Assembly (NCBI GenBank): GCA_014859375.1
Contig: JACUUH010000021.1
Location: forward strand, 1-39,685
Direction: 5' to 3'
DNA length: 39,685 bases
From: Gammaproteobacteria bacterium
GTDB lineage: Bacteria; Pseudomonadota; Gammaproteobacteria; Nitrosococcales; Methylophagaceae
Shown here: piece after piece, positions 16,382 through 21,766 of the stretch
How positions within the stretch are numbered: position 1 is the stretch's first letter
Layout of the letters: each line of letters begins with the position of its first letter
Position numbers and translations under genes: made by a program
The notes under the pieces: model-generated
The model's input: the letters and a program-made list of their open reading frames with translations, nothing else
Told to the model about the DNA's origin: nothing
Databases searched by the model: none

Positions 16382-17368
16382 CTAGAACACGCTAACGGCC
16401 TGTGATTTGAAGCTTATCCAGATGCTTTGTCCCAACTCAAGTTTTAACTCGTGTAATGAGCTGTGGGTGATGATTGCGTGGAAACGTTCCTGGCAGTCAA
16501 CGGTCACTCTGACTTCATTTGCCTCTTCTGCGATGCTGATAATTCTGCCTTGAAACTGATTTCTCATGCTGGATCTAATTGCTTGATGTGACACGATAAT
16601 TTCATGAGGATCGATAGCAACATGACGGACTTCATCTTGCATTGAATTGGTGTGAATGTGCAATTTTCCGGTATCAAAAATGGCCTGTTTTAATGTGCCA
16701 TCATAGACATTGATTAGTGGACTTTTTGTGGTTTTGCCATCAACAAGATTGATGACGTCATTAGCCAAGGCTCGACCTTGCAAGCGATTATGTGTTGAAA
16801 AAATGACCGTTGTTTCTGTTTGATCAGCAAGCTGCGCAATAATCGTTTCCAATGACTGAATGTGACTTTGGTCGAGGTGCGAGAATGGCTCGTCCAGCAA
16901 TAAAATTTCTGGGTGATAACTGATGGCACGGGCAATGGCAGCCCGTTTTAGTTCACCACCTGATAAGGTGCTGGCGGCTTGGTTAGCTAAGTGAGTTAGC
17001 CCAACTTGCTCTAAGGCTTCAGCAATTAAACGTGGATGCCTTTTGGTCTCAGTATTTTGTAGCTTTAGCGCGAGACGAATATTATCACTAACACTACCTG
17101 ATAATAAGAAAGGATGTTGACTGACATAGCCTATTTTACAACGTTGAGCAGGTAATAACGGTAGTGTTACTGGCATTCCACTTAGGAAAACCTTGCCCTC
17201 ACTTGGTGTTTTAATGAAGGCTAATAGGTCAAGCAAGGTTGATTTACCCGCACCATTATCGCCAAATAAGGCGATGCAATCTGATTTAGGTAAGATAAGA
17301 GAAGGGATATCAAGGATACAGTTTTGCTGGCGAAACACCTTGATATTGTGTAATTCATAGGCGGTCAT
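16382..17368 (-). CDS. tupC: ABC transporter ATP-binding protein, tungstate/molybdate type
   Basis: A 328-residue ATPase. Walker A is GDNGAGKST, the signature is LSGGELKRAAIARA and Walker B is ILLLDEPFSHLDQ, followed by the FSTHN switch histidine. The extra 110 residues at the C-terminus end in a TOBE-like beta segment (RNQFQGRIISIAEEANEVRV), as in ModC and TupC/WtpC oxyanion importers. The ATG at 17368 overlaps the permease stop by four bases and is preferred to one 21 bases upstream. Substrate choice between tungstate and molybdate is inference from the permease type. Confidence 0.8.
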   Translation of the reverse strand: MTAYELHNIKVFRQQNCILDIPSLILPKSDCIALFGDNGAGKSTLLDLLAFIKTPSEGKVFLSGMPVTLPLLPAQRCKIGYVSQHPFLLSGSVSDNIRLALKLQNTETKRHPRLIAEALEQVGLTHLANQAASTLSGGELKRAAIARAISYHPEILLLDEPFSHLDQSHIQSLETIIAQLADQTETTVIFSTHNRLQGRALANDVINLVDGKTTKSPLINVYDGTLKQAIFDTGKLHIHTNSMQDEVRHVAIDPHEIIVSHQAIRSSMRNQFQGRIISIAEEANEVRVTVDCQERFHAIITHSSLHELKLELGQSIWISFKSQAVSVF

Positions 17369-18057
17369 GGTTGTGCTCGCTGTAACCAAGATAGCAAGAA
17401 GTTAATGCCAAAAGCGATGAATAACAACAGTAAACCTAAGGCCAAACCAACTTCAAATTCGCCTTTGCTGGTTTCCAGAGCAATAGCGGTGGTCATGGTT
17501 CGGGTATAACCTTCAATATTTCCGCCCAACATCATGGCTGCACCGACTTCACCAATGGCACGACCAAACCCAGTGATCACGGCAGCTAAAATGGCAAAGC
17601 GACAATGTTTTATTACGTGAAAAAGTAATTGTCCAGGTTTGGCGCCTAGACTAATTAAAGTGGGTACCAAGCGCGTATCACTTGAGGTGACGGCGACTAC
17701 AGTTAAATTCATCATGATTGGGAAAATTAATATCGCTTCTGCGATGATTACCGCTGTTGGTGTGTAGAGTAATTGTAAATAGCCGAGTGGCCCTAAACGA
17801 CTAAACAAGCCATAGAGCAATAAGCCAATGACAACCGTCGGTAAAGCCATCAAGGTGTTAAGCAGATGCTGCAATAGGTGTTTGCCACGAAACTCATGAA
17901 GCCCCATCAGTGTTCCAGCAGGGATAGCCCCGGTTGCCGCAATAATCGCAGCAACGATGGATATTGATAAAGAGGTAATAACAATGTGATAAATGTCTTT
18001 ATCAAATGACGTTATCAACGCTACTGCTGTAGAAAGTGAATCAGCAAAATAGCTCAT
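17365..18057 (-). CDS. tupB: ABC transporter permease, tungstate type (TupB-like)
   Basis: A 230-residue membrane permease with about five or six helices. The segments MALPTVVIGLLLYGLFSRLGPLG (split around residues 69-91) and GFGRAIGEVGAAMMLGGNI (about 164-182, the EAA coupling loop) are typical of TupB/WtpB-type oxyanion permeases. Only permease and ATPase are here: the periplasmic binding protein normally encoded first is missing, and metF lies just 18 bp upstream. The system therefore needs a binding protein encoded elsewhere. Confidence 0.82.
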   Translation of the reverse strand: MSYFADSLSTAVALITSFDKDIYHIVITSLSISIVAAIIAATGAIPAGTLMGLHEFRGKHLLQHLLNTLMALPTVVIGLLLYGLFSRLGPLGYLQLLYTPTAVIIAEAILIFPIMMNLTVVAVTSSDTRLVPTLISLGAKPGQLLFHVIKHCRFAILAAVITGFGRAIGEVGAAMMLGGNIEGYTRTMTTAIALETSKGEFEVGLALGLLLLFIAFGINFLLSWLQRAQP

Positions 18058-18075
18058 AAGACACTATCGATGTCG

Positions 18076-18927
18076 TTAGCGAATAAGGCCAAGGCGTTGA
18101 CATATTGTTAATGTCGGATCAACACGGTTCATCGTGTAAAAATGCAAACCAGGCACACCAACATCAATCAACTTTTGAGTAAAATCAGTTAAAAAATCTA
18201 AGGTAAAGGCCTGTAGTGATTCAGTGTCGTCATGAAATTCTTCTAGACGTTTACGTAACCAACGTGGAATTTCAGCACCACAGCTCTCTGAAAAACGGGC
18301 TAACTGAGAATAATTATTTATCGGCATAATGCCAGGAATAATAGGGATATCTATGCCATTAGCCTGACAGCGATCGATAAAATAGCGATAAGCATCAATA
18401 TTATAAAAATACTGTGTTAAGGCGCTGTTGGCTCCCGCATCGACTTTTCGTTTGAAGTTAAGCACGTCAGCGTGTGCTGAGTTTGCTTGAGGATGAACTT
18501 CAGGATAGGCCGCCACTTCAATTGAGAAATGATCGCCTGTTTCCTTGCGAATAAATTCAACCAGTTCATTGGCATATCGAAAATCGCCAGGGTCACGCAT
18601 TCCCGAGGGTAAATCACCACGTAGCGCGACTAAGCGTCGAATTCCATTATCTTTATAAGTGGCAAGTATGTCGCGCAGACGTTCAGTTGTCGAACCGACA
18701 CAAGATAGATGAGGTGCAGCATCTATGCCTGTTCTTACTTTATCTTGTTGAATTTCGACGACGGCATCTAAAGTATTTTCTTGGGTCGAGCCACCCGCAC
18801 CAAAGGTAACCGAATAAAATTTCGGATTGAGGGGTATTAGGCGCTCACGTACGGCACGCATGTTTTCAATACCTTTATCGGTTTTAGGAGGGAAAAATTC
18901 GCAACTGATAGTAAGCTTATGTGACAT
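18076..18927 (-). CDS. metF: 5,10-methylenetetrahydrofolate reductase
   Basis: A 283-residue FAD enzyme that makes 5-methyl-THF for methionine synthesis. It starts SHKLTISCEFFPPKTDKG with the family glutamate in EFFPPK, and shows SVTFGAGGSTQENT, PHLSCVG and VALRGDLPSG. Length is typical. It completes a methyl-cycle set with metK and ahcY upstream, but a perfect palindrome plus T-run lies between ahcY and metF, so its expression may depend on readthrough. Confidence 0.96.
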   Translation of the reverse strand: MSHKLTISCEFFPPKTDKGIENMRAVRERLIPLNPKFYSVTFGAGGSTQENTLDAVVEIQQDKVRTGIDAAPHLSCVGSTTERLRDILATYKDNGIRRLVALRGDLPSGMRDPGDFRYANELVEFIRKETGDHFSIEVAAYPEVHPQANSAHADVLNFKRKVDAGANSALTQYFYNIDAYRYFIDRCQANGIDIPIIPGIMPINNYSQLARFSESCGAEIPRWLRKRLEEFHDDTESLQAFTLDFLTDFTQKLIDVGVPGLHFYTMNRVDPTLTICQRLGLIR

Positions 18928-18995: not shown

Positions 18996-20300
18996 CTAGT
19001 AACGATAGTGGTCAGGCTTATAAGGACCTTCTTTACTTAGGCTTAAGTATTTTGCCTGCTCATCGGTAAGTTCTGTTAATTGAGCGCCAATTTTACCCAA
19101 ATGTAATCGTGCTACTTTCTCGTCTAACGACTTAGGTAGAACATAGACTTCATTTTTGTAATTATCGCTATTGTGCCACAACTCAATTTGAGCCATGACT
19201 TGGTTACTAAATGATGCTGACATAACAAAGCTAGGATGACCGGTTGCACAACCTAAGTTTACCAAGCGACCTTCTGCTAACAAGGTGATGCGTTTGCCAT
19301 CAGGGAAGATAACTTGATCTACCTGCGGTTTAACATTTTCCCATTCATATTGGCGTAATGATGCCACATCAATTTCAGAATCAAAGTGACCGATATTACA
19401 AACGATAGCTTCATTTTTCATCGCTTTCATATGGTCATGCGTGATCACGCGTACATTACCGGTAGTTGTAACAAAGATATCACCTAATGCAGCGATATCA
19501 TCCATAGTGACGATACGGTAGCCTTCCATTGCTGCTTGTAGCGCACAAATTGGGTCAATTTCAGTCACCATGACGGTTGCACCCATACCGCGGAATGCTT
19601 GTGCACAGCCTTTACCGACATCACCATAACCTAACACGACACAGATTTTACCGGCAATCATGACATCAGTGGCACGTTTAATCCCGTCTAATAATGATTC
19701 ACGGCAACCGTATAAATTGTCGAATTTTGATTTTGTAACTGAGTCATTAACGTTAATTGCTGGCACTTTTAATGAGCCGTCTTTCATCATTTCATAAAGA
19801 CGATGCACACCAGTGGTTGTTTCTTCTGATAGACCTTTGACGTCAGCAAGCAATTCAGGATACTCATCGTGCATGATTTGCGTTAAATCACCGCCATCAT
19901 CCAAAATCAGATTTGGTCGCCAGCCGTTAGGACCAAAAATAGTTTGTTTAATACACCAGATAGCTTCTTGTTCTGTTTCACCTTTCCAGGCAAACACAGG
20001 AATAGCTTGCGCGGCAATAGCAGCGGCAGCTTGATCTTGGGTTGAGAAGATATTGCATGATGACCAACGTACTTCTGCGCCAAGTTCTACCAATGTTTCA
20101 ATTAACACGGCAGTTTGAATGGTCATGTGTAAGCAACCGGCAATCCGTGCACCAGCTAATGGTTTGTTGCCAGCATATTGTTCGCGAATTGCCATTAAGC
20201 CAGGCATTTCTGTTTCAGCAATTTTGATTTCTTTTTTGCCCCAGTCAGCCAGATTCATATCGGCGACTTTATAGTCAGGCGTAAGGTTCTCAATTGTCAT
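18996..20300 (-). CDS. ahcY: S-adenosylhomocysteine hydrolase
   Basis: A 434-residue cytosolic enzyme that reversibly splits SAH into adenosine and homocysteine, removing the product inhibitor of methyltransferases. It has [18 protein letters not shown], the NAD-binding [18 protein letters not shown], the [11 protein letters not shown] segment, and the conserved C-terminus ending KPDHYRY that closes the cofactor site. An AAGGA site precedes the ATG. It lies 103 bp after metK, with a hairpin repeat in that gap, and is followed by an intrinsic terminator. Confidence 0.97.
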
Positions 20301-20403: not shown

Positions 20404-21564
20404 TTAGATACCAGCAGCATCACGTAATGTGTCCGCCAGATCGGTTTTTTCCCAAGTGAACTCAGGATTTTCACGACCAAAATGACCATAGGCCGCTGTA
20501 GCTTGATAAATTGGGCGAATAAGATTGAGCATGTTGACCAGTCCAACTGGACGCAAGTCAAAATGGTCACGTACCAATGCTTCTAATTTTTCTGAATTGA
20601 TCTTGCCAGTGCCAAACGTTTCGATACTGATAGATGTCGGCTGGGCAACACCGATAGCATATGAAACCTGGATTTCGCAGCGATCCGCCAGACCGGCAGC
20701 AACAATATTTTTGGCAACATAACGTCCAGCATAGGCTGCACTGCGATCCACTTTTGATGGATCTTTACCAGAAAAAGCACCACCACCATGACGTGCCATA
20801 CCGCCATAGGTATCAACAATGATTTTGCGACCTGTTAAGCCACAATCACCGACAGGCCCACCGATAATAAATTGACCTGTTGGATTGATATGAAAAGCAG
20901 TGTCTTTAGTAATCCAGTGTTCAGGCAATGTTGGTTTGATGATGACTTCCATCACCGCTTCTTTAATATCGGCTTGAGAAATGTCAGGGTTATGTTGAGT
21001 AGATAAGACTACGGCATCAATCCCAACTGGTTTGCCATCCTCATAAACAAAGGTTATTTGACTTTTGGCATCAGGGCGAAGCCAAGGTAACGTGCCATTT
21101 TTACGCACTTCTGCTTGGCGTTTTACTAAACGATGAGCATAAGTAATTGGTGCGGGCATTAAAACGTCAGTCTCATTACTGGCATAACCAAACATCAAGC
21201 CTTGGTCACCAGCACCTTGGTCTTCAGGTTTGTCGCGATCAACACCCATTGCAATATCACTTGATTGCTTGCCAATCAGTGACATGACGGCACAGGTCTG
21301 ACCATCAAAACCGACTTCAGAGCTGTTATAACCAATATTGGTAATGGTTTTACGAACGACTTCTTCTAAATCAACCCATGCTGAGGTACTGATTTCACCT
21401 GCAATAATAGCTGCACCGGTTTTAATTAACGTTTCACACGCAACACGGGCATTGGGATCTTGGCGAAGAATTTCATCTAAAACTGCATCAGAAATCTGAT
21501 CGGCAACTTTATCTGGATGGCCTTCTGAAACGGATTCAGAAGTAAAAATTGAACGGTTACTCAT
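20404..21564 (-). CDS. metK: S-adenosylmethionine synthetase
   Basis: A 386-residue enzyme that makes SAM from methionine and ATP. Signatures: [20 protein letters not shown] at the start, [12 protein letters not shown] around residues 116-127, and [18 protein letters not shown] in the phosphate-binding loop. The ATG at 21564 ([11 protein letters not shown]) is chosen because the alternative two codons upstream is a TTG. It is first in metK-ahcY, and the leader in front of it contains the SAH riboswitch. Confidence 0.97.
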
Positions 21565-21642
21565 AAACAATATGCCTCATTACTTGAATGACGTAGTTAA
21601 TGAGTGTTGGCGAAGATAGTGTGATGTAGACTGTTCGGACAA

Positions 21643-21668
21643 CGCTCATTATTTTTAAATAATGAGCG
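21643..21668 (-). promoter_or_regulatory. Palindromic hairpin acting as likely riboswitch expression platform
   Basis: A perfect 12-bp inverted repeat with two central bases (arms CGCTCATTATTT and AAATAATGAGCG on the minus strand). Its first arm overlaps GCGCTC (21664-21669), the predicted pseudoknot strand of the SAH riboswitch, so hairpin and pseudoknot should exclude each other. It is not followed by a T-run. Confidence 0.6.
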
Positions 21669-21728
21669 CGGTTAAAAAATTATGTGAATAAGCCTAGCAG
21701 GAAAGACCTGTTGCAGCGCTCCTTATTC
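21664..21728 (-). ncRNA. S-adenosylhomocysteine (SAH) riboswitch
   Basis: On the minus strand the leader of metK-ahcY shows P1 GAATAAG (21722-21728) paired with CTTATTC (21686-21692), and the core AGGAGCGCTGCAA (21711-21723), identical to the conserved core I recall for SAH riboswitches. A small stem CAGG/CCTG (21707-21710 and 21698-21701) with a five-base loop follows, then CTAGGCTT where the consensus has CCAGGCTC. GCGCTC downstream (21664-21669) is the exact complement of GAGCGC in the core (21716-21721), the expected pseudoknot P4. The RNA starts just after a promoter and lies about 100 nt before metK. Known members sit before ahcY, often with metH or metF, and turn genes on when SAH accumulates. 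Confidence 0.9.
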
Positions 21729-21737
21729 TGGCCAATA

Positions 21738-21766
21738 ATTGTAGTCCTTTAAATTAAAAAAGACAA
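21738..21766 (-). promoter_or_regulatory. Promoter of the SAH riboswitch-metK-ahcY transcript
   Basis: TTGTCT (21761-21766), a 17-bp spacer and TACAAT (21738-21743) on the minus strand. The expected start falls a few bases before riboswitch stem P1. Confidence 0.7.

Follow-up and report, generated by a model that had tools for sequence, protein, structure and literature searches.

We report that the element heading a minus-strand metK operon in the window (the whole stretch of DNA analysed, 39,685 nucleotides) belongs, by its sequence, to the known class of SAH riboswitches and is well conserved, and that the position of metK as first gene behind it is a family-wide trait. High SAH inhibits methyltransferases, and where an RNA controls SAM synthetase it is usually taken to sense SAM. 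Here, we propose with a probability of about 0.82 that the riboswitch turns on metK-ahcY-metF when SAH builds up, through an exchange of RNA strands; SAH binding and the ON sign are carried over from the known class. The features on which this reading draws are as follows.

21738-21766, minus strand: promoter-like sequence TTGTCT-17-TACAAT, whose end lies 7 nt upstream of the aptamer model
21657-21730, minus strand: SAH riboswitch aptamer (RF01057), from a 54.1-bit match and covariation
21728-21722 with 21692-21686, minus strand: aptamer helix P1 (GAATAAG/CTTATTC), from sequence and model alignment
21710-21707 with 21701-21698, minus strand: aptamer helix P2, from the model alignment
21721-21716 with 21669-21664, minus strand: aptamer pseudoknot P4 (GAGCGC/GCGCTC), from sequence and model alignment
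21642-21669, minus strand: hairpin A:B, mutually exclusive with P4 (arm A 21669-21658, loop 21657-21654, arm B 21653-21642)
21598-21609, minus strand: strand C (CAACACTCATTA), complementary to arm B and the next TTG with one mismatch (4+7 pairs)
21575-21582, minus strand: strand D (TAATGAGG) with the Shine-Dalgarno sequence GAGG (21578-21575), possibly pairing with C
20404-21564, minus strand: metK, SAM synthetase (TIGR01034, 624.7 bits, above the NCBIfam cut-off)
18996-20300, minus strand: ahcY, SAH hydrolase (TIGR00936, 654.2 bits, above the NCBIfam cut-off)
18076-18927, minus strand: metF, methylenetetrahydrofolate reductase (TIGR00676, 328.3 bits, above the NCBIfam cut-off)

The Rfam model RF01057 matched positions 21730-21657 of the minus strand over its full length with 54.1 bits, where the gathering score is 37, and the window's own genome gave no other RF01057 match at E<=0.001; the SAM/SAH model RF01727 and the SAM-Chlorobi model RF01724 gave no match in the window at their gathering scores. 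An earlier note on this DNA had read an SAH riboswitch here, with P1, a conserved core, a small stem and P4, and the covariance search bears it out: all four elements are present on the minus strand, the core being AGGAGCGCTGCAA. The same note had named covariation across relatives as a check. The alignment for this check comprised 33 non-redundant leaders, which remained of 50 (46 genomes of the window's family and 4 Cycloclasticus records) once near-identical ones were dropped. Of the 561 cells that P1, P2 and P4 occupy in this alignment, 99.6% are paired, four of their pairs have changed on both sides, and 15 cells show such double changes versus 2.0 in shuffles; covariation by further pair types is not above chance in these leaders (7 observed, 8.5 in shuffles). 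The most variable pair of P4 is A-U in 27 leaders and G-C in 6. The assignment to RF01057 is thus based on a score above the cut-off, on covariation in P1, P2 and P4, and on a site before the SAM-cycle genes metK, ahcY and metF. Neither of the outcomes named in the note as refuting its reading, a missing model hit or a lack of P1/P4 covariation among relatives, was seen. The promoter that had also been placed in the leader corresponds to the promoter-like sequence at 21766-21738, which is weak on its own because 8 such sites occur in 1751 bases where 3.7 are expected.

The gene order is shared well beyond the window. An RF01057 match was found in 46 of 57 genomes of the family, a group of methylotroph-like bacteria, and riboswitch, metK and ahcY follow one another on the same strand in all 46; metF comes after ahcY in 13 of the 16 family loci that reach beyond it. 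Of the 27 named loci tested, exact leader identity links 19 with family genomes, the named loci shown being from Methylophaga (M. muralis and M. aminisulfidivorans), a Piscirickettsiaceae bacterium and uncultured Gammaproteobacteria, and in four Cycloclasticus records a riboswitch above the cut-off is likewise followed by metK. Eleven family genomes lacked an initial match. One of them (G009) gave 40.4 bits in a looser search, and another without a reported model match (G008) has what looks by eye like an intact SAH riboswitch before metK; both stand outside the counts of 46 genomes and 33 leaders and enter only the 35-leader Shine-Dalgarno stem test described below. Two more (G022 and G003) carry metK with no RF01057 match at E<=1 and none visible upstream, and in the other seven no complete metK start was found. 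The six other genomes of the order gave no riboswitch match. A local rearrangement or an assembly accident as the source of the metK-first order is ruled out by the 46 of 46 relatives. The earlier note had called this order unusual: it is real and contradicts a printed statement (below), but it is a trait of the family that recurs elsewhere, not a local oddity.

The window's genome also has metH. Within the window, at 16382-18057, an ABC permease ORF (PF00528) starts 18 nt past metF, and behind it comes an ABC ATPase with a TOBE domain; the operon may extend past the SAM-cycle genes into these transporter ORFs.

A class-wide sample gave a riboswitch match in 161 of 370 genomes. Among the matches listed, we read 110 loci outside the window's family, with ahcY as first gene in 103, metK in 4 and another gene in 3; the four metK-first loci come from f69 (3 genomes) and f128 (1 genome), two families other than the window's. 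When these two were surveyed, f69 had a riboswitch in 59 of 63 genomes, with two matches in 20 of them, and f128 in 47 of 54, with two matches in 5 of the 54. We read 29 loci of f69: 27 are metK-first and the remaining 2 are second copies between metK and ahcY, so that riboswitch-metK-riboswitch-ahcY arrays occur in this family. Of 30 loci read in f128 (L303-L332), 10 are metK-first, 19 ahcY-first and one is too short to classify. In three loci (L212, L270 and L271), from genomes with two matches each, the riboswitch stands before a gene other than metK, ahcY or metF, which by eye resembles metH in its motifs. No SAH riboswitch was found in two named methane-oxidiser loci matching the DNA pattern (L051 and L068).

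Downstream of the aptamer, the window's leader can form a hairpin (21669-21642) of 12 pairs, the outermost a G-U, closing a 4-nt loop, with a folding energy of -14.3 kcal/mol; shuffled sequences average -2.5 (sd 2.0; z -5.9), and none of 200 folds as well. A perfect 12-bp hairpin had been described at this place. The stem is indeed the same, but that register would leave a loop of 2 nt. The 3' strand of P4 (21669-21664) doubles as the 5' arm of the hairpin, and it does so in 33 of 33 non-redundant leaders, which upholds the claim that the two structures exclude each other; the varying base of the P4 strand faces its hairpin partner as C-G in 6 leaders, U-G in 19 and U-A in 8. Because the strand is shared in all 33 leaders and the window hairpin stands at z -5.9, the predicted exclusion between P4 and hairpin is a conserved design.

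The P4 strand is used differently elsewhere in the class. In ahcY-type leaders the aptamer model ends a median of 27 nt before the projected start (103 loci), and the P4 strand has its best stem over the ribosome site or start in 55 loci out of 102, upstream in 9 and within the gene in 10, with no stem or an unreadable one in 28. This count was run without a chance control and leaves out one locus lacking a start codon; rows with no P4 pattern (9 ahcY, 1 metK) are included in the best-stem totals. All 26 readable loci of the 27 in f69 have a P4 strand that pairs with the metK AUG over 7-11 bp, beyond dinucleotide shuffles (p<=0.05) in 25 loci, which suggests that it can hide the metK start codon itself. 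The first metK codons in f69 loci such as L193, L272 and L274-L279, ATGACTGAG or ATGGCTGAG, find their complement in the P4 strand GCGCTCAGTCAT. The metK copies of f128 resemble the window, with the hairpin well upstream of the ribosome site in 10 of 10. Because of this distance, the signal needs a further carrier in both the window's family and f128.

A third strand, new here, is a candidate for this role. The distance from the beginning of strand C to the start codon is 34-58 nt in 32 of the 33 leaders and 91 nt in the other, and the duplex energy of C with the hairpin loop and 3' arm, set against dinucleotide shuffles, has a mean z of -1.90, with 26 of 33 leaders below -1 and 7 above. Hairpins match their own leaders more closely than those of swapped genomes, overall and within hairpin types (p 5e-5, the lowest value that the test can give; long-loop group p 1.5e-4, short-loop group p 0.013), p values that are optimistic because the leaders are related and not independent. 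When the P4 hexamer is masked in a partition-function model, A:B falls from 10.5 to 2.6 pairs and B:C rises from 3.2 to 11.1, a larger shift than in shuffled leaders under the same masking (1.4 to 6.4; p 0.004), in an equilibrium treatment that ignores kinetics and the pseudoknot. In f128, B:C complementarity is weak (mean z -0.48 over 10 leaders) despite a similar upstream hairpin. Taken together, these results suggest that hairpin and strand C form a platform for strand exchange.

In the mechanism that we propose, P4 (21721-21716 with 21669-21664) would keep hold of arm A while SAH is bound and so block the full A:B hairpin, and the freed arm B would then pair with strand C (21609-21598). 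In the absence of SAH, A:B would form and the leader would be OFF. More tentatively, and with a probability clearly below one half, the exchange could run in two steps: the ligand traps A, and B, with the loop as toehold, invades C, which sets expression from within a Rho-loading stretch or as an anti-Shine-Dalgarno strand. Such a platform would accompany the move of metK to first gene.

As the output of the OFF state, we regard premature Rho-type termination between the hairpin and the Shine-Dalgarno sequence as the most likely candidate, although we would put it somewhat short of an even chance. Without SAH, A:B would expose a C-rich Rho-loading stretch, which B:C would mask when SAH is bound. 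This stretch has a mean C content of 0.29 and a mean G content of 0.11, and in 26 of the 33 leaders C is twice as frequent as G or more; the same bias stands upstream of only 2 of 33 ORFs of the window, one being metK itself, although these control ORFs were called mechanically and all come from one window. Such a composition fits Rho loading, but C-richness is partly inherent in a strand complementary to B, and a C-rich, G-poor leader may reflect just selection for unstructured RNA. Only 5 of 33 leaders have 5 or more U among the 8 nt that follow the hairpin. The window itself has 2 U in the 8 nt past the stem, as expected from the earlier remark that the hairpin lacks a T-run; no terminator-like site was found at the window hairpin, and an intrinsic terminator is rejected for want of a U-tract, so that the guess of another kind of output stands. 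Ranked second, and a little less probable than Rho-type termination, is occlusion of the ribosome site through C:D: without SAH, C would be free to pair with D (CTCATTA/TAATGAG) and ribosomes would be blocked, whereas with SAH, B would take C and D would open. The C:D repeat spans 7 bp in the window, with 7-8-bp versions in several relatives, and the P4-strand stem lies over the ribosome site or start elsewhere in the class (55 of 102 ahcY loci; over the metK AUG in 26 of 26 in f69). Masking the P4 hexamer also raises the opening of the Shine-Dalgarno sequence from 0.28 to 0.42, compared with 0.20 to 0.23 in shuffles (p 0.012), when 3 nt of the gene are included, but the effect is gone with 15 or 30 nt (p 0.15 and 0.99). 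Folding of whole leaders raises the opening in only 18 of 46, with changes above 0.1 upward in 8 and downward in 13, and the mean goes from 0.31 to 0.30; C:D complementarity has a mean z of -0.40, with 9 of 33 leaders below -1; and the local Shine-Dalgarno stem beats its shuffles at p<=0.05 in none of 35 leaders (Fisher p 0.42). With whole-leader folding and two shuffle-controlled complementarity tests negative overall, we reject a Shine-Dalgarno relay as the general output and keep it as a rival. The remaining probability falls to RNA stability or something else.

A reading of another kind would take the inverted repeats, of which the window holds two with an identical half-site (CTCATTA/TAATGAG), as DNA sites of a regulatory protein that overlap the riboswitch incidentally. 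We consider this very improbable: arm A shares bases with the P4 strand in all 33 leaders, and the downstream half-sites are not conserved in other lineages, whereas hairpin and strand C co-vary. An SAH riboswitch that acts by strand exchange remains our preferred reading.

The published record bears directly on the metK-first wiring. In the consulted sections of a survey of about 200 proteobacterial genomes (Leyn et al., 2014; PMC4239095), metK is said not to be under the control of SAH riboswitches, which are placed upstream of ahcY in every genome surveyed. The wiring described here contradicts that printed statement. The sections covered of other literature, including PMC2864571, PMC3766115, PMC10907184, PMC2891591 and PMC9481103, held no statement contrary to Leyn et al., the original descriptions of the RNA lying outside this scope. 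The window shares with RF01057 the aptamer sequence, P1, P2, P4, the SAM-cycle operon and the use of the P4 strand in an alternative hairpin; it differs from the usual arrangement in that metK comes first and the alternative hairpin lies far upstream of the ribosome site, facing a third strand. Two other RNAs come close in their target genes, as far as the consulted parts of one paper describe them (PMC2864571). The SAM/SAH riboswitch RF01727 of Rhodobacterales controls metK and can bind SAH, but it has another fold, belongs to another family and is read by its authors as SAM-responsive, while the SAM-Chlorobi motif RF01724 precedes operons with metK and ahcY but is a different motif, found in Chlorobi. 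Closest in logic is SahR, whose core regulon in other proteobacteria, according to the sections consulted of PMC4239095, comprises ahcY, metH, metF and metK under joint SAH-responsive control; SahR is a DNA-binding protein, whereas the regulator in the window is an RNA. Since that core regulon also holds metK with ahcY, metH and metF, an SAH-driven metK is credible and not paradoxical.

In this family, high SAH would be expected to switch on together SAH removal by AhcY, methyl supply by MetF and SAM regeneration by MetK, and their joint induction would restore the SAM/SAH ratio. The window's leader offers a testable case of a pseudoknot aptamer that relays its signal across about 100 nt. Across the 46 of 46 riboswitch-bearing family genomes read, Cycloclasticus and two more families, the metK-first wiring would tie SAM synthesis to SAH, the product of methylation, so that the SAM/SAH ratio would be steered from the waste side.
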